Origin: a virus
IMG/VR virus record: IMGVR_UViG_3300008952_000275
Location: 1-25,412 of that record
Length of the DNA stretch: 25,412 nt
Direction: 5' to 3' (one strand)
Shown: one piece after another, positions 7,886 through 15,978 of the stretch
Numbering within the stretch: the first letter of the stretch is position 1
Layout: the number at the start of each line of letters is the position of its first letter
The notes under the pieces: generated by a model
Told to the model about the DNA's origin: nothing
Database searches by the model: none
Seen by the model: the letters and a program-made list of their open reading frames with translations, nothing else
Program-made: the position numbers and the translations under genes

Positions 7886-9272
7886 CCGGCAACTCCGTGG
7901 TGAACTGGCCGACTATGCGCTGATTGGCAATCTCGTCATAAGCCTGAGGCAGTTCATCGTCCTCAACCACCAACGCGGCAATCTGCCGGTCAATCGCACG
8001 TTGGAAGGTGCCGCTTTGCAGTCCGCTTGCTCGGGCCATCTGCAGGAATTCCAAATCGGCATGGTAGTCACGCAGATCAAATGAGTCGGCGTAGTCGATA
8101 ACCCCATCCCAATCTCGACCTTGCCATGCGCACCACAGCGTCCATAGTTGTTCCTCTGCCAGTTCCAAGAGGTCGGCTTTCTCCGAGAGTTTGCTGTTCA
8201 GCATCTGGAACTCGGTCTGTAATGCGACTCCGCTCTTGGCTTGTTTTTCGGTTGCCCTGACTGCTCCCAAGTGAGTAACCCGATCCACTGCTTTGATCTT
8301 GTCCTCGATGCTTGCGCGGATGCCATCAAGGTTACTGCTGTTGGGTTGCAACAGGAACGGCGTTAAACCGGGGTCAAGGTCATCCGGCATTTGGATCACG
8401 CTACCGGCTCCCGCGCTTGCCTCCGTGCCGTCGGTCTTGGCGAGCGAGGGGTGGTTGGCAATGCGGATCAACTGCTCAATCTCGCTCAACTCGTTATAGA
8501 TCGCACGCTGTATATCGGCCACGTCTGCAATGTCAGGTACGCCCACGCCGCGGATCGGTGAGCGTTGCGCGTAAACACAGACCGCGGGAATGACCCCAAG
8601 CGGGTTATCCATGCGCTCAATCAATAGCGGGTCTTTTTCCGTCTCCGCTTCCCATAACTCAATGGTGTCTGGCGTCCAGATGCGAAAGCGTCGTTTGATG
8701 ATGTCCGTGTTGCTTCTCAAAGGATGCTCAAACATCTCACGCACTTTGAGGTACACCAGTTTGTAAGCCCCTGACGGCGTGCGCTCATAACGCCAATCAA
8801 ACACGTTCTCAGGCGTGATCAGCGTGAGGTAAGGCCGGATATCTGCCGCCAGTTCCTCGGCGCGGGTCGTGGCCTCGATGCTTGGCTTATCCAACAGCAA
8901 CCAACAGTGACCGTAGACGCTAGACCACACCGTTGCTTCCCGCATCACGGTGTTAAAGGATCGCCCGTCGTGATCGGCATCCATCAGGAACGGCGCAAGG
9001 GCCGGGTCGTTTTCTATCCCGCCAAACTCCCGGGTCGGGTTATCTCGCCAGATAAACGACGAGTAGATATGCACTACGTTCTTGCACTGGTTATCGAGCG
9101 GGGTCTGTGCAAGCCGCTCCTCATAATCCTGCTCGGATTCCAGTTTGTATTTGGTCAGGTATTGCCCTCGGCGATAGTTATCGCCCCCCAGGTAAGAGCG
9201 CAACAGAAACTCCCATCTAAGTGAATGAAGGTCGTAGGTAGCACCGGTTTGCGTTATTTGCTCGTTAGCCAT
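7878..9272 (-). CDS. Portal protein
   Basis: The protein has 464 aa from the ATG at 9272, which has GGTGGAG upstream and shares one base with the terminase stop (TAATG). A GTG three codons earlier is less likely. The sequence has portal features: an N-terminal segment with Tyr/Arg-rich YLGGDNYRRGQYLTKYK, a clip/wing region with RMDNPLGVIPAVCVY, a stem helix (DIQRAIYNELSEIEQLIRI) and a C-terminal helical crown (AEEQLWTLWCAWQGRDW). It looks closest to the DUF4055-type portals. The dodecameric ring would form the DNA entry vertex and dock the terminase. It lies between TerL and the MuF-like gene. Confidence 0.88.
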   Translation of the reverse strand: MANEQITQTGATYDLHSLRWEFLLRSYLGGDNYRRGQYLTKYKLESEQDYEERLAQTPLDNQCKNVVHIYSSFIWRDNPTREFGGIENDPALAPFLMDADHDGRSFNTVMREATVWSSVYGHCWLLLDKPSIEATTRAEELAADIRPYLTLITPENVFDWRYERTPSGAYKLVYLKVREMFEHPLRSNTDIIKRRFRIWTPDTIELWEAETEKDPLLIERMDNPLGVIPAVCVYAQRSPIRGVGVPDIADVADIQRAIYNELSEIEQLIRIANHPSLAKTDGTEASAGAGSVIQMPDDLDPGLTPFLLQPNSSNLDGIRASIEDKIKAVDRVTHLGAVRATEKQAKSGVALQTEFQMLNSKLSEKADLLELAEEQLWTLWCAWQGRDWDGVIDYADSFDLRDYHADLEFLQMARASGLQSGTFQRAIDRQIAALVVEDDELPQAYDEIANQRIVGQFTTELPVA

Positions 9273-10498
9273 TAACTCCACCGTGTTGGTTGTCGTGGTT
9301 CAATATGTCGGCGCAACGGCAACTCGCCCATGACGAGGTAGCCGATTGCGTCTGCGATGTGATCTAACCCGCTTGATTTATCGGGCTGATGCGATCCGTC
9401 TATGTAGGTCAGTCCATCTAAAGATCGGATTAGGTTTGTACAGCGAGGGTTAACAAATAATCTGCGCTTATCGTCAGCGGTTTTTAACGCCGCTTGCACA
9501 GTGTTAATTCTATCAATGACAGGGTGTGCATTACGAGGCGCGCGCACTTCAAATCCTGCGTTGGACAAAATAGCGAAGTCGGTACGACCCACTGGCGCCG
9601 AAGTCTTACGAGCGCGTCCAGACGGATCGGGATATACAACGATAGGTCGTTTCGGGTATCGCTGTTTTATTTCTTCGGCCATTAGTTCCGTGTTGCTGTC
9701 TTTCAACATGATCTCGTCGATCAGGTGTAACTGGTCTGCCGCCCTAACCGAGATAACAGCACTCATCGGATCCACGTTGAAATCCATGCCGATTAATAAG
9801 GTGCCACCGTTATCGGTTACATCAGCAACGTTTTCTACGTGGTCGAAGTTGGAATAAACCCGTCCAGAAAGTGCCTCGAAGGTCGCGAGAAATTCCTGTC
9901 GAAATTCCCTCTCCCCCATATCCCGCATGGCGACTTCGATCTCGTCAGCCGACACCCGCGCTCCGTCTGCGGTGGTGAACTGGTAAGCGGCCCACCCTTC
10001 TGTATCCTGCGCGTATCGGAATAGGTCGTAGAAATGGTTGTATCCTTTCGGGGTGCCGATCCATAAAGCACGCCCTTGTCTATCTGCCAACATTGGCCGA
10101 AGGACTTCATGCCATGCATCGGGGTGCATATCAGCAAATTCGTCCATAACCAAGAAATCAAGACCAACACCGCGAAGACTGTCGTAATTATCCGCGCCCC
10201 GAAGGGATGCTGTGGCCCCATTAATTAACTCCAGACTCAGGTCAGTTTCGTTGGTGTGCGTGATTACGCTTGCCGGTGTCATCCGTTTTAACTCCTTCCA
10301 CGCAATCTGCTTTGCCTGTCTGTAAGTCGGCGCGACATACCAAGCGGTGTGATTGTCATTGGCACAAGCGTTCAGTAATTCAGTGAGGGCGAGATACGTC
10401 TTTCCGAATCTCCGACCCGCTACCAGAACCCGAAACCTCGCCTGATTCCGATGCACTTCCCACTGGTTGGTGTGTAGTATGTGTTTCCGTTCCTTCAT
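9272..10498 (-). CDS. terL: Terminase large subunit (ATPase and nuclease)
   Basis: A 408-aa terminase with a complete motif set. The Walker A motif is AGRRFGKT at residues 27-34, Walker B is LDFLVMDE at 113-120 and the coupling motif is WIGTPKG near 146-152. The C-terminal RNase H-like nuclease carries aspartates in GMDFNVDP (about D239), YPDPSG (about D291) and GLDHIADA (about D379 and D383). It would pump DNA through the portal and cut concatemers. The Walker A position so near the N-terminus supports the ATG at 10498. That start lies inside the terS gene, giving a 119-base overlap. The end is coupled to the portal gene by TAATG. Confidence 0.95.
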   Translation of the reverse strand: MKERKHILHTNQWEVHRNQARFRVLVAGRRFGKTYLALTELLNACANDNHTAWYVAPTYRQAKQIAWKELKRMTPASVITHTNETDLSLELINGATASLRGADNYDSLRGVGLDFLVMDEFADMHPDAWHEVLRPMLADRQGRALWIGTPKGYNHFYDLFRYAQDTEGWAAYQFTTADGARVSADEIEVAMRDMGEREFRQEFLATFEALSGRVYSNFDHVENVADVTDNGGTLLIGMDFNVDPMSAVISVRAADQLHLIDEIMLKDSNTELMAEEIKQRYPKRPIVVYPDPSGRARKTSAPVGRTDFAILSNAGFEVRAPRNAHPVIDRINTVQAALKTADDKRRLFVNPRCTNLIRSLDGLTYIDGSHQPDKSSGLDHIADAIGYLVMGELPLRRHIEPRQPTRWS

Positions 10499-10838
10499 CG
10501 CGGGTGATCACTAACCGTTCTATTTGATGCTGTTCGATCTGTTGTTTATCGCTCTGGCCAAGTCGGTTCTTCCCTAACCAAATCTGCATGGTGGCATTGC
10601 CTTCTTCAGCCGTTTTCCATTGCATACGGCGAAGCGATGCGTTGCCCTGTTGCTTGCCCTGTTCTACGGCTTCCGCTATCTCGGGGTCTTGTTTTTTGTG
10701 CCGTTTCCAAGTCGCATAGTTGATCCCGATAACCGATGCTATCTCTGGTTCGGTGCAACTTAGCCCTGCCAGAGTCTTCACTTGCTCCAAATTGATTTGC
10801 GCTCTCGGGCGACCACCTTTGTTTTTTGGTTCATTCAT
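10380..10838 (-). CDS. terS: Terminase small subunit
   Basis: The protein has 152 aa from the ATG at 10838, which overlaps the upstream stop as ATGA; a TTG at 10883 would add 15 residues. The N-terminal domain is a helix-turn-helix (LEQVKTLAGLSCTEPEIASVIGI then NYATWKRHKK), followed by a helical oligomerisation part (EGNATMQIWLGKNRLGQSDKQ). The WLGKN-x-LGQ motif is common in small terminases. It would recognise the packaging site and stimulate TerL. The C-terminal 39 codons, Ser/Gly/Glu-rich, overlap the terL start in another frame, so that tail is probably flexible and constrained by the terL code. Confidence 0.85.
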   Translation of the reverse strand: MNEPKNKGGRPRAQINLEQVKTLAGLSCTEPEIASVIGINYATWKRHKKQDPEIAEAVEQGKQQGNASLRRMQWKTAEEGNATMQIWLGKNRLGQSDKQQIEQHQIERLVITRDEGTETHTTHQPVGSASESGEVSGSGSGSEIRKDVSRPH

Positions 10839-11698
10839 GGCGCAAAACTCTCTGAGATAATCATCGGCACTGCTTTTCCCCAATCTATTCGATGATGTAA
10901 ACGTCTATTTTTCACTCCCATCGGCGCGATGGTTACGCATGATGGCGCGACCATGATCGTATAAAAGCTTTTAACGTATGTGCCGGAATCCAGATATAAC
11001 TCAGTCATCCCCCCTGAGTTAGATTGACTCGCCATTTGATTTAACTGAACAGGCAGATATGTGAAAAACAAACGCCCGACTCTGCCCAATCCTACATAGG
11101 TGTTTACATCTTCATTTATTCGGCCTGAAAACTGAAAAGGACGATCTACATCGCAGATAAAACTGTTCATCGCCTTTCTCTTTATTTGTTTTTTCGGCTT
11201 GCCATTGGCCCGTAATGGCCCGCCTATATGGTCGCCGCCCTGAGACATAGCAATAGTTAGCGTGGGTGTTTCCTCCATAAAACCAATAAATGCCGTTAAG
11301 ACATCGTCAAGACTTTTTATCGTCCAACCATGCCAACCATAAGTTCCATTTAATCGCCCCGGCCTACGATATGAAAAATTTGTGTAATCATCGTCCAGTT
11401 GAATGAAATATTTGCAACCTACCTCCTTTGCGAGATCAAAACACGCGTTTCTCGCCCATAGGATTGCACGACGATCTTTAAAGTTATCGAATTGATCGGT
11501 TGTTTTTGCTATTTCATCTTTTGAAAAAACCAATACTGAATCACCAAATAATTCTTTGTACTGCTCGATAGTGCTGTCTTCATCATCAACGACTATAAAT
11601 ATCTTGCCTGTATATCCAGCGCGCCTTAATGAACTAATAGTAACGACCTTATTTGGCCTTCCATGTGTGAGAATGAATGCAGCGAAATCACTACGCAT
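10835..11698 (-). CDS. TET-associated-type glycosyltransferase (TAGT-like)
   Basis: The protein has 287 aa from the ATG at 11698, with AGGA eight bases upstream; it overlaps the ParB gene by eight bases. It looks like a GT-A glycosyltransferase: FAAFILTHGRP near the N-terminus, a nucleotide-sugar strand KIFIVVDDED (32-41), a WARNACFDLAKE helix at 81-92 and a DDD metal-binding motif in FIQLDDDY (98-105). The combination of THGRP, VVDDED, ARN and LDDDY fits the phage family known as TET-associated glycosyltransferases, proposed to glycosylate hypermodified DNA bases. No TET/JBP dioxygenase or DNA methylase is in this window. Family call is from memory of the pattern; the DNA-modification role is inferred. 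Confidence 0.68.
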   Translation of the reverse strand: MRSDFAAFILTHGRPNKVVTISSLRRAGYTGKIFIVVDDEDSTIEQYKELFGDSVLVFSKDEIAKTTDQFDNFKDRRAILWARNACFDLAKEVGCKYFIQLDDDYTNFSYRRPGRLNGTYGWHGWTIKSLDDVLTAFIGFMEETPTLTIAMSQGGDHIGGPLRANGKPKKQIKRKAMNSFICDVDRPFQFSGRINEDVNTYVGLGRVGRLFFTYLPVQLNQMASQSNSGGMTELYLDSGTYVKSFYTIMVAPSCVTIAPMGVKNRRLHHRIDWGKAVPMIISESFAP

Positions 11699-12458
11699 CT
11701 GGATAATCCTGACCAAATGCTTCATCCAAATTACTTTCAAGATTAACAAAGCCGTTTTCGATTGCTTTATTAAAATCAATAACAACAAGCGCCGATTCTT
11801 CCATTAGATTTTGAATATCCTGAGATGAGTGCGCGTAAAAATCAGCGAGTTTGTCGAAACGAAATACCACATGCCGTTCTGCGGCATCGCATAAAACATC
11901 CTCTATTTCTTTACTCAGTTTTGCTTTTTTGATTTCTTTAATTAACTGATCTGCTTTAGTACGATCTCGTAGTTCCGACGGAATAGGCTTCTGATCTGAT
12001 GGCTCATATATCGGCGCATCAATCTTGCTTGTATATGGATTGTTATCCCATTCAATTAGAGCGGGGTCGATAAGATATTGAGACAACTGTTTATTGTTAA
12101 ACGCCGTTAAATCGAGATCGAATCCAAGATCATCAAGATCGCAGAGTTCAATTCCGAGCATCTTTATATCCCACGATGCGTATTCATTGGTTCGGTTATC
12201 AGCAAGCCGGTATGCTTTGGCCTGTCCCTCTGTCAGTTTATCGGCAACTTGTACCGGCACTTCATCGAAACCGAGTTTTTTCGCCGCTAACAGTCGGGTG
12301 TGGCCGACGATCACGACCATGTTTTCATCTACGACAATCGGCTGTTGCCAACCAAATGCTTGAATAGATGCCGCGACCTTATCTACAGCATCCGAGTTGT
12401 TTCTCGGGTTGTTGGCGTAGGGGATAACAGAATCAATATTGACGTTATCAATTTTCAT
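11691..12458 (-). CDS. ParB/Srx-fold domain protein
   Basis: A 255-aa protein with an N-terminal ParB nuclease-like domain. Key features are IPYANNPRNN (12-21), the helix AVDKVAASIQAFGWQQPIVVD (24-44) and the signature VGHTRLLAAKKLG (51-63). After about residue 120 the sequence is unlike partition proteins; it has a charged middle and a C-terminal domain with HVVFRFDKLADFYAHSS and ALVVIDFNKAIENGF. No methyltransferase domain is fused, unlike many phage ParB-MTase proteins. It is translationally coupled to the Cys-rich protein upstream (ATGA) and the glycosyltransferase downstream. In phages such ParB domains are often found with DNA-modifying enzymes. CTP or ATP use and DNA targeting are inferred. 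Confidence 0.85.
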   Translation of the reverse strand: MKIDNVNIDSVIPYANNPRNNSDAVDKVAASIQAFGWQQPIVVDENMVVIVGHTRLLAAKKLGFDEVPVQVADKLTEGQAKAYRLADNRTNEYASWDIKMLGIELCDLDDLGFDLDLTAFNNKQLSQYLIDPALIEWDNNPYTSKIDAPIYEPSDQKPIPSELRDRTKADQLIKEIKKAKLSKEIEDVLCDAAERHVVFRFDKLADFYAHSSQDIQNLMEESALVVIDFNKAIENGFVNLESNLDEAFGQDYPDA

Positions 12459-12673
12459 TTTTTGCTCTTTTTTTCTATAAAAATATCATCATAGATTTCC
12501 CGCGTTGCCGGGATCGGTTCAGTTTGTTTTGGTGGTTTCTGTCGGCGGCCTAAATCCACATACAGGGCAAACTGCTCACACGCCAGTTCAAAATAATCGC
12601 ATACATCCCAAAGCGGGCAGTCGTAGTCGCATGGTGCTGGTGGAATTTCAATGAATAACCTAGTGGTCGGCAT
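12455..12673 (-). CDS. Small Cys-rich hypothetical protein
   Basis: A 72-aa protein with four cysteines in the pattern C-x3-C-x5-C-x6-C (CDYDCPLWDVCDYFELAC), which may bind zinc. The C-terminal half is basic and Pro-rich (RRQKPPKQTEPIPATREIY) and ends in KKSKK. It overlaps the resolvase-like gene upstream by 14 bases and the ParB gene downstream as ATGA. I do not recognise the family. The context suggests it is expressed with, and might act with, the ParB/glycosyltransferase pair. Confidence 0.72.
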   Translation of the reverse strand: MPTTRLFIEIPPAPCDYDCPLWDVCDYFELACEQFALYVDLGRRQKPPKQTEPIPATREIYDDIFIEKKSKK

Positions 12674-13064
12674 CGATACCGCCGATGGCTCGCCAACTTA
12701 TTTCCTCGCGCACTACTTCGCACCAGTCAGCGATATCCATCTCAATAGGAAAATGATGGACGCAACCAATATCCCGAGCAAAGCACCGGACGCGCCACGG
12801 ACGATAATCCAGTCGGTAAATCAAAACCGGCCTCTCGTTTATGACGCTTGCTTGGTTTCTTGATTGCGCCCACCAATCGTTTGACCATTTCTTCGCTCGT
12901 TTAACTTCAATCGCCCATCCCGGTACGCCGAGAAGATCCGTTCGGCATATTCCACCGGACGCCTGCATCTGCCAGTTCCGCGTAATATCCAGATTCAGTT
13001 CGTCACGAAGGATTCGCGCGACTTCTTGCTCGCCCGCGCGACCCTTAGTGCGTGAGTTGGTCAA
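12660..13064 (-). CDS. Holliday-junction-resolvase-like PD-(D/E)XK nuclease
   Basis: A 134-aa protein with the layout of archaeal Hjc-type and phage resolvase-like nucleases. The N-terminus has KGRAGEQEVARILRDEL with the conserved acidic residue (about E12-E14), followed by DLLGVPGWAIEVKRA, giving the D43...E53-x-K55 active-site triad. The C-terminal half has VLIYRLDYRPWRVR, a typical core strand. It would resolve branched DNA formed during recombination-dependent replication or before packaging. It overlaps both neighbouring genes by a few bases. The DNA substrate is not shown by the sequence. Confidence 0.8.
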   Translation of the reverse strand: MTNSRTKGRAGEQEVARILRDELNLDITRNWQMQASGGICRTDLLGVPGWAIEVKRAKKWSNDWWAQSRNQASVINERPVLIYRLDYRPWRVRCFARDIGCVHHFPIEMDIADWCEVVREEISWRAIGGIDADH

Positions 13065-14705: not shown

Positions 14706-14906
14706 TCATTCGTTTCTTGGGTATATATCGGGGCGCAGTTCGTGCCGACTAACGCCAGTTACCTTTTCGACCGGAATCACGAATTCCGGGGAAATCTGGC
14801 TTTTATGAAGCCAGTTCCATACTCGTGGCTGAGAAACCCCCAACGCTCGGGCCAAACTGCTCTGACCGCCGGCTATCTCCACCGCTTTCTCAATCGCTTG
14901 ATTCAT
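14706..14906 (-). CDS. Cro/YdaS-like transcriptional regulator
   Basis: A 66-aa helix-turn-helix protein with the YdaS/Cro pattern: NQAIEKAVEIAGGQSSLARA, then LGVSQPRVWNWLHKSQISPE, then VIPVEKVTGVSRHELRPDIYP. It is the first gene of the minus-strand operon and divergent from the repressor operon, the position of cro in lambdoid phages. It would bind the operators in 14907-15030 and repress the lysogenic promoter. A -10 box lies only nine bases from its ATG and no ribosome-binding site is visible, so its mRNA is probably leaderless or nearly so. Confidence 0.88.
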   Translation of the reverse strand: MNQAIEKAVEIAGGQSSLARALGVSQPRVWNWLHKSQISPEFVIPVEKVTGVSRHELRPDIYPRNE

Positions 14907-15387: not shown

Positions 15388-15978
15388 ATGTCGTTGGGTG
15401 AAAGATTGAAAATTGCGAGATTGGAAAAAGGAATAACACAAACAGAACTCGCGAAGTGTGTAGGCGTGTCTCAGGCGGCGATAGCCGGTCTTGAGATACG
15501 TGAATCAAAACAAAGCGGATACACAAGTCAGATTGCGGAATGTCTGAACATCAATGTTCAATGGTTAGCAACAGGAACAGGGCCAATGAACAAACCGGCG
15601 CCTACCCCGGTGATCACAATTCCCTTAATTCGGTGGAGTGATATTGATGAAGGCAGTCGAGCTGATCCGATTTCAACAATTCCGTGGCATACAGGAAACA
15701 ATAACGTGTCACAAGTTTTTGCTTTAGAAATCAGTGGCGTTTCTATGGAGCCGGAATTTCATGACGGTGATTACATCGTCGTGGATCCAGACCGAACGCC
15801 GAGTCACAATGATTTTGTAATTATCAACACAGGCGAAGAACCTATGCTTCGTCAATATATAAAAGAAGGTGGACGCACATTCGCGCGTGCGCTGAACCCG
15901 GCATGGCAACCTCAGTTAGAGCAGATTCAGTCTGACGGTATAGCCGGGGTTGTACTCCAAAAAAGCCGCAATTACTGA
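15388..15978 (+). CDS. CI-like repressor, XRE HTH plus S24/LexA-like domain (likely non-cleavable)
   Basis: A 196-aa protein. The N-terminal HTH (residues about 17-36, ITQTELAKCVGVSQAAIAGL) would bind operators at 14907-15030. The C-terminal domain has the S24 fold: FALEISGVSMEPEFHDGDYI with the nucleophile Ser119. By alignment with lambda CI (TFKKLI) and LexA (TVKRLK), the catalytic Lys falls on Arg155 in MLRQYIKEGG. The usual Ala-Gly cleavage site in the linker is also absent (IPLIRWSDIDEGSRADP). This suggests it dimerises but is not self-cleaved after SOS, so induction would need another route such as an antirepressor. It follows the poly-C gene in the same direction. Confidence 0.88.
   Translation: MSLGERLKIARLEKGITQTELAKCVGVSQAAIAGLEIRESKQSGYTSQIAECLNINVQWLATGTGPMNKPAPTPVITIPLIRWSDIDEGSRADPISTIPWHTGNNNVSQVFALEISGVSMEPEFHDGDYIVVDPDRTPSHNDFVIINTGEEPMLRQYIKEGGRTFARALNPAWQPQLEQIQSDGIAGVVLQKSRNY

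Follow-up and report, generated by a model that had tools for sequence, protein, structure and literature searches.

What does a glycosyltransferase of the TAGT family do when its gene is wedged between one for a ParB-domain protein and those for the terminase? The name of the family implies an association with TET/JBP enzymes (not a feature of its profile), and the locus described here raises the questions of whether the ParB-domain protein is a functional partner of the enzyme and of which molecule is glycosylated.

Organization of the locus and features of the two proteins

The window (the whole 25.4-kb stretch of DNA that was analyzed) coincides with the entire virus record. Pfam scans revealed an integrase, a CI-like repressor, ERF/YqaJ recombination genes, SSB, capsid, portal and terminase, i.e., part of a temperate phage; because most tail genes are absent, the record is probably incomplete. 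YdaS-like/CI-like regulators and an S24-type repressor, at 14706-14906 and 15388-15978, represent its lysis–lysogeny region. The genes of interest run on the minus strand, in the order PDDEXK-like endonuclease, 72-aa ORF, ParB, TAGT, TerS, TerL:

12660..13064, minus strand: PDDEXK-type endonuclease/resolvase-like ORF, head of the gene run (PF24608, 8e-11; phrog_244)
12455..12673, minus strand: 72-aa ORF with several cysteines, directly upstream of ParB (no family match)
11691..12458, minus strand: ParB-fold protein, 255 aa (PF02195, phrog_620, AF2, Foldseek Noc/ParB)
12057..12458, minus strand: ParB N-module, residues 1-134 (phrog_498; identity to the EJ-1 N6_N4 methyltransferase N-terminus)
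11709..12047, minus strand: ParB private helical C-terminal domain, residues 138-250 (own-domain searches)
10835..11698, minus strand: TAGT-family GT-A glycosyltransferase, 287 aa from the conserved ATG (PF20691, phrog_842, AF2, Foldseek, DDD/NED/HH motifs)
10380..10838, minus strand: terminase small subunit, TerS (phrog_309, 2.4e-18)
9272..10498, minus strand: terminase large subunit, TerL, Terminase_6N/6C (PF03237, 6e-16; PF17289, 4e-11)

The TAGT ORF is open from 11788, and its conserved ATG, at 11698, lies within the end of ParB (junction ...CCAGATGCGTAG; the letters of the 8-nt overlap are ATGCGTAG). The TAGT stop codon, TGA, falls within the TerS ATG at 10838 (ATGA, a 4-nt overlap; junction ...CCATGAATGAA), and the start of ParB in turn overlaps the preceding 72-aa ORF by 4 nt (ATGA). 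A preliminary description of this DNA had placed the two ORFs at these positions, directly upstream of the terminase genes, and had proposed co-translation through overlaps of eight and four bases; the gene order, with TerS and TerL next in the run, and the junction letters bear out both points.

The same description had assigned the downstream product to the TAGT type and the upstream one to the ParB-domain proteins, and profile searches agreed on both counts. TAGT scored 108.3 bits against PF20691 (E 6.5e-31; curated cut-off, 27.5), which makes it a member of the family, and matched phrog_842 with E 3.6e-75. The four motifs pointed out earlier (THGRP, here as LTHGRP, VVDDED, ARN and LDDDY) are all present and are conserved across 85 aligned relatives, in which D133, D134 and D227 are invariant. 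A PDB sequence search with TAGT gave no match. The AF2 model (pLDDT 91.8, pTM 0.87) was matched by Foldseek to GT-A enzymes such as chondroitin polymerase, ppGalNAc transferases, SunS and SpsA (E 1e-5 to 1e-3); judging from the model and from the three invariant aspartates, which supply a DXD-type motif, TAGT is a GT-A enzyme. The matched structures are protein, lipid and polysaccharide glycosyltransferases, with TM about 0.4, and at the level of the model they do not fix the acceptor.

ParB gave 29.4 bits against PF02195 (cut-off, 26.3) and 8.8e-58 against phrog_620. Its AF2 model (pLDDT 88) was matched by Foldseek to Noc/ParB, and the box II arginine, R55, is kept in 46 of 52 sequences, so that profile, fold and arginine all identify a ParB-CTPase fold. 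This fold, together with the 'partitioning protein' names found in public records, might suggest a prophage partition or regulatory factor that TAGT merely modulates, with no nucleic-acid modification involved. We regard such a role as extremely improbable. The protein reaches only 29.5 bits against TIGR00180, whose cut-off is 58.45, and its C-terminal domain is different from that of canonical partition proteins and private to this family; no ParA family member was found in scans of the window; most hosts carry integrated prophages, and the gene belongs to the late gene order.

ParB is rather a two-part protein. Residues 1-134 matched phrog_498 (1.2e-42) and are 49% identical to the N-terminus of a protein of phage EJ-1, the rest of which is an N6_N4 methyltransferase. 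In EJ-1, CR191 and Javan576, the ParB fusion sits directly before TerS/TerL. The remark in the preliminary description that the present protein lacks a methylase is thus correct and also informative, since the module elsewhere fused to DNA methyltransferases is here joined to a private, TAGT-linked C-terminal domain. The protein of Streptococcus phage Javan576 (L400:3998-5086), annotated as 'DNA modification methylase', was rejected as a ParB-methylase: it consists of ParB_N and DUF4417, in the same pre-terminase slot, and DUF4417 may be another DNA-modifying effector.

The helical C-terminal domain is better conserved than the DNA-binding part of ParB, with Y142, P149, Y151, R195, A205, Y208, E220, L224, D228 and G236 invariant. 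Over residues 138-250, we found no PDB fold match other than spurious ones to repeat proteins. The simplest reading of this architecture is that the N-module targets DNA and that the effector varies, being a methyltransferase in cis or, presumably by docking onto the private domain, TAGT in trans.

The acceptor might instead be a protein (ParB itself, the terminase, the capsid or a host protein), in which case the module would act as a late protein-glycosylation switch. The strong conservation of the C-terminal domain relative to the DNA-binding part would fit such a role, as would its many invariant polar residues (R195, Y208, E220, D228), which recall a substrate or an active interface; moreover, the best folds for TAGT include the protein glycosyltransferases ppGalNAcT, SunS and glycogenin, and no base-hydroxylating enzyme is encoded. 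Still, all kinds of GT-A folds match equally weakly, the N-module is otherwise found joined to DNA methyltransferases that occupy the same slot, and the TAGT that has been characterized, from phage T6, works on DNA. On these grounds, a protein acceptor seems to us rather unlikely.

Occurrence of the ParB–TAGT pair

Searches of IMG/VR with TAGT only returned more than 500 relatives, from which we derived a non-redundant set of 150 TAGTs with upstream sequence (80% identity clusters). An ORF with the ParB C-terminal domain (ParB-C) was present within 3 kb upstream in 147/150 cases, and in 107 it was directly upstream or overlapping; the remaining three are extra copies in tandem arrays. Conversely, a search with the ParB C-terminal domain alone yielded 266 ParB-C ORFs that adjoin TAGT. 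Among the further ParB-C ORFs, all 11 with sufficient room were followed by TAGT 0.4-2.4 kb on, and two ran off the contig. The top matches of this reverse search are biased towards the query family, and the 40 matches from bacterial genomes, down to 37% identity, behave alike. As far as sequence searches can tell, the private domain is found only with TAGT, and the pair does not appear to be a stray from a TET pathway, it being the ParB partner that is conserved instead.

A simple sequence search found TerL within 4.5 kb downstream in 61 of 94 non-redundant loci; given the diversity of terminases, this figure is a minimum. Among the hosts are Escherichia, Lactobacillus, Porphyromonas, Nocardia and Haloarcula, and the same order occurs in the Lactobacillus phages phi jlb1 and c5, Salmonella SPF_0923, Nocardia NTR1, Porphyromonas phage005a and the archaeal virus HHTV-2, where a longer stretch precedes TerL. 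In phage c5, the pair adjoins the cos site. The pair is therefore real and widespread. We found no description of it in the literature searched; the 2013 paper that defined TAGT may contain part of one.

Escherichia coli offers a familiar example. In strain 8600, trkG is followed by a full ParB, TAGT (named 'GREB1-related protein'), TerS and TerL, and ParB/TAGT overlaps of about 8 nt recur in the species. The Rac prophage of E. coli C600/K-12 shows the order trkG-ynaK-ydaY, ynaK being a truncated ParB of the same module (87 aa; L407:4004-4607, from C600); the adjacency of ydaY, together with the lack of TAGT and terminase, agrees with a remnant left by deletion. In ATCC 8739, a broken ynaK is accompanied by a TAGT of full length. 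At least 80% of the pair is present in 887 of 5426 complete E. coli genomes (about one in six), which, with the K-12 remnant, makes for a tractable model.

Donor, acceptor and proposed mechanism

In relatives of the window's module, accessory genes are inserted on one side of TAGT or the other, separating it from ParB or from TerS (the locus counts that follow are not de-duplicated). CDP-type nucleotidyltransferases were found at 81 loci, 74 of them as a fusion of a histidine phosphatase with a cytidylyltransferase, His_Phos+CTP_transf, and seven as a lone CTP_transf. The nearest solved relative of the C-terminal part of the fusion is glycerol-3-phosphate cytidylyltransferase; the gene lies between ParB and TAGT in a large branch (L231:2942-3895, L212, L324-L390 and others), and the resulting three-gene module probably uses a CDP-type donor. 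Other loci carry UDP-galactopyranose mutase (3 loci; E 1e-72 in L281), an epimerase (2), CofD plus NTP_transf_3 (1) and class I methyltransferases (3).

A radical-SAM enzyme was found at 19 loci, and in prophages of Clostridia and gut bacteria it directly follows TAGT (L264:9171-10112, L270, L272, L274, L276, L277, L279, L283-L288); possible roles are preparation of the acceptor and tailoring of the sugar. Two or more TAGTs occur at 13 loci, with up to five in L397, and arrays of three to five tandem genes (L397:868-5837; L261:6230-9219; L289:3321-5855) suggest a sugar chain that is built stepwise. A P-loop (GPSCSGKST) protein of about 186 aa with no Pfam match, fused to TAGT in L280:6498-7901 and separate in L289:2744-3304, is possibly a kinase of the same pathway.

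On a TAGT tree (FastTree, some long branches), at least seven changes were needed for the nucleotidyltransferases, at least eight for radical SAM and at least seven for the sugar-nucleotide genes, implying that accessory genes were recruited repeatedly. Overall, the accessory genes speak for sugar chemistry; none occurs in the branch of the window, which would therefore depend on a host donor.

Since UDP-galactopyranose mutase and GalE-like genes also have a part in making envelope glycans, and temperate phages often encode surface glycosyltransferases, we considered whether TAGT might glycosylate a surface or cytoplasmic glycan, as in serotype conversion or superinfection exclusion, its ParB/terminase neighborhood being incidental. 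This we deem very unlikely, given that almost every relative, whether from a Gram-negative, a Gram-positive or an archaeal host, has TAGT co-translated with ParB; seroconversion genes would not need ParB, and in the cassettes examined we saw neither a flippase nor a partner membrane gene.

The acceptor is the more difficult problem. Pfam scans found neither TET/JBP nor C5-methylase among the window proteins, as the preliminary description had stated, and in particular PF00145 (C5-methylase) was absent from the window; it was positive in two of 41 records. The thymidylate-synthase family (PF00303), which would include the hydroxymethylase of a T-even hydroxymethylcytosine pathway, was absent from the window and from 39 of 40 other records, the single positive among the 41 being Vibrio phage pv27. 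Controls were positive for both profiles. PF12851 (TET) matched none of two sets of 44 and 30 records (0/74) and none of 399 genomes, controls included, which is not proof of absence; the absence of TET rests on the Pfam scans. The window thus shows neither the TET/JBP association implied by the TAGT name nor the cytosine C5-methylase of a C5-methylase and TET pathway.

The earlier suggestion that such enzymes are encoded elsewhere in the genome found no support. Lactobacillus phage c5, which is complete (31.8 kb), shows in Pfam scans of 38 proteins no dioxygenase, C5-methylase or thymidylate-synthase-like enzyme. A classical hydroxymethylpyrimidine pathway, in which TET/JBP acting on 5mC or a nucleotide-level hydroxymethylase supplies the acceptor from outside the window or from the host, would agree with the name and history of the TAGT family, with the incompleteness of the window record and with the thymidylate-synthase-type gene of pv27. 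Against it stand phage c5, the rarity of both enzyme families in the 41 records and the conserved pairing with ParB, not TET, although PF12851 matched no control. We consider this origin of the acceptor unlikely.

On balance, we favor a ParB-guided, TET-independent glycosylation, most likely of phage DNA, as a reasonably probable, if by no means secure, function of the pair. ParB and TAGT would then act as a single two-component modification module, encoded where the late/packaging genes begin. Phage DNA would be recognized or clamped by the ParB N-module, the private C-terminal domain of ParB would serve TAGT, most likely by docking, and TAGT would move a sugar from a nucleotide donor onto the DNA. 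In the basic form, as in the window, the donor would be a host sugar nucleotide; relatives would synthesize their own donor or add further sugars via tandem TAGTs. With no TET, C5-methylase or hydroxymethylase used, the acceptor would be either an ordinary base or a group that the module or the host produces. The likely purpose would be to shield the genome against host nucleases around the stages of replication and packaging, and a sugar-marking step near packaging, as first proposed for this locus, is plausible.

DNA glycosylation is supported by the near-universality of the pair, by the N-module shared with ParB–DNA-methyltransferases in the same slot, by the presence of the DNA-acting T6 TAGT in the family and by the repeated gain of donor genes in the cassette. 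ParB-domain genes also adjoin the phage cytosine carboxymethyltransferase CmoX (PMC12783734). On the other hand, no known nucleophile for O-glycosylation is made in ParB–TAGT phages, and T6 TAGT, no more than a remote relative, extends a sugar that the DNA already bears. In the literature, we found neither virion nucleoside data for ParB–TAGT phages nor reports on whether HHTV-2 or L. delbrueckii phages resist restriction.

A more specific version, which we offer tentatively and would not be surprised to see fail, is that the ParB-guided enzyme attaches sugars straight to phage DNA that is ordinary and non-hydroxylated; the donor would be exchangeable (host UDP-sugars, UDP-galactofuranose, CDP-activated compounds), and short chains would arise where TAGTs repeat. 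If so, the pair would define a class of TET- and hmC-independent glycosylation in bacterial and archaeal viruses, laid down beside the packaging start. More generally, a large share of solitary TAGTs is explained as one conserved module, a second likely type of DNA modification becomes associated with ParB domains, and donors are predicted that range from UDP-galactofuranose to CDP-activated compounds. Should DNA be the acceptor, the module would offer new DNA-glycosylating enzymes and represent a counter-defense layer common in temperate phages.

Comparison with known systems

The TET/JBP-associated TAGT systems, reportedly described by Iyer et al. in 2013, share with the window pair the glycosyltransferase family and a predicted role on DNA bases; in the window, however, a private ParB partner domain takes the place of TET/JBP and C5-methylase. 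The Rac ynaK–ydaY region has the gene order of the window system, trkG-ParB-(TAGT), but its K-12/C600 copy has lost most of ParB, TAGT and the terminase.

T6 TAGT (beta-glucosyl-HMC-alpha-glucosyltransferase) adds a second glucose onto glucosyl-hmC DNA (PMC13216743). Like the window TAGT, it is phage-encoded and belongs to PF20691 (37 bits), PHROG 842 and the GT-A fold, although a direct comparison of its profile with that of the window family gave no alignment (hhalign E 0.42). It differs in acting after alpha-GT and dCMP hydroxymethylase, in being located with replication genes and in having no ParB partner. TAGT homologues without alpha-GT or beta-GT were counted in 288 of 753 phage genomes and considered possible novel transferases, their function being left open (PMC13216743).

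A survey of the ParB fold (PNAS 2025) reported methyltransferase and DUF4417 fusions in phages; the words 'glycosyltransferase' and 'terminase' do not occur in it (PMC12704722). These fusions have in common with the window pair the N-terminal ParB module and the slot directly before TerS/TerL, but they carry their effector in cis, whereas the window pair has a separate, overlapping TAGT gene and a TAGT-specific ParB C-terminal domain. Finally, the CmoX/CmoY carboxymethylcytosine hypermodification likewise provides a non-TET handle on cytosine, with ParB-domain genes nearby (PMC12783734), but it proceeds through a methyltransferase and a ligase, with no role for a glycosyltransferase.
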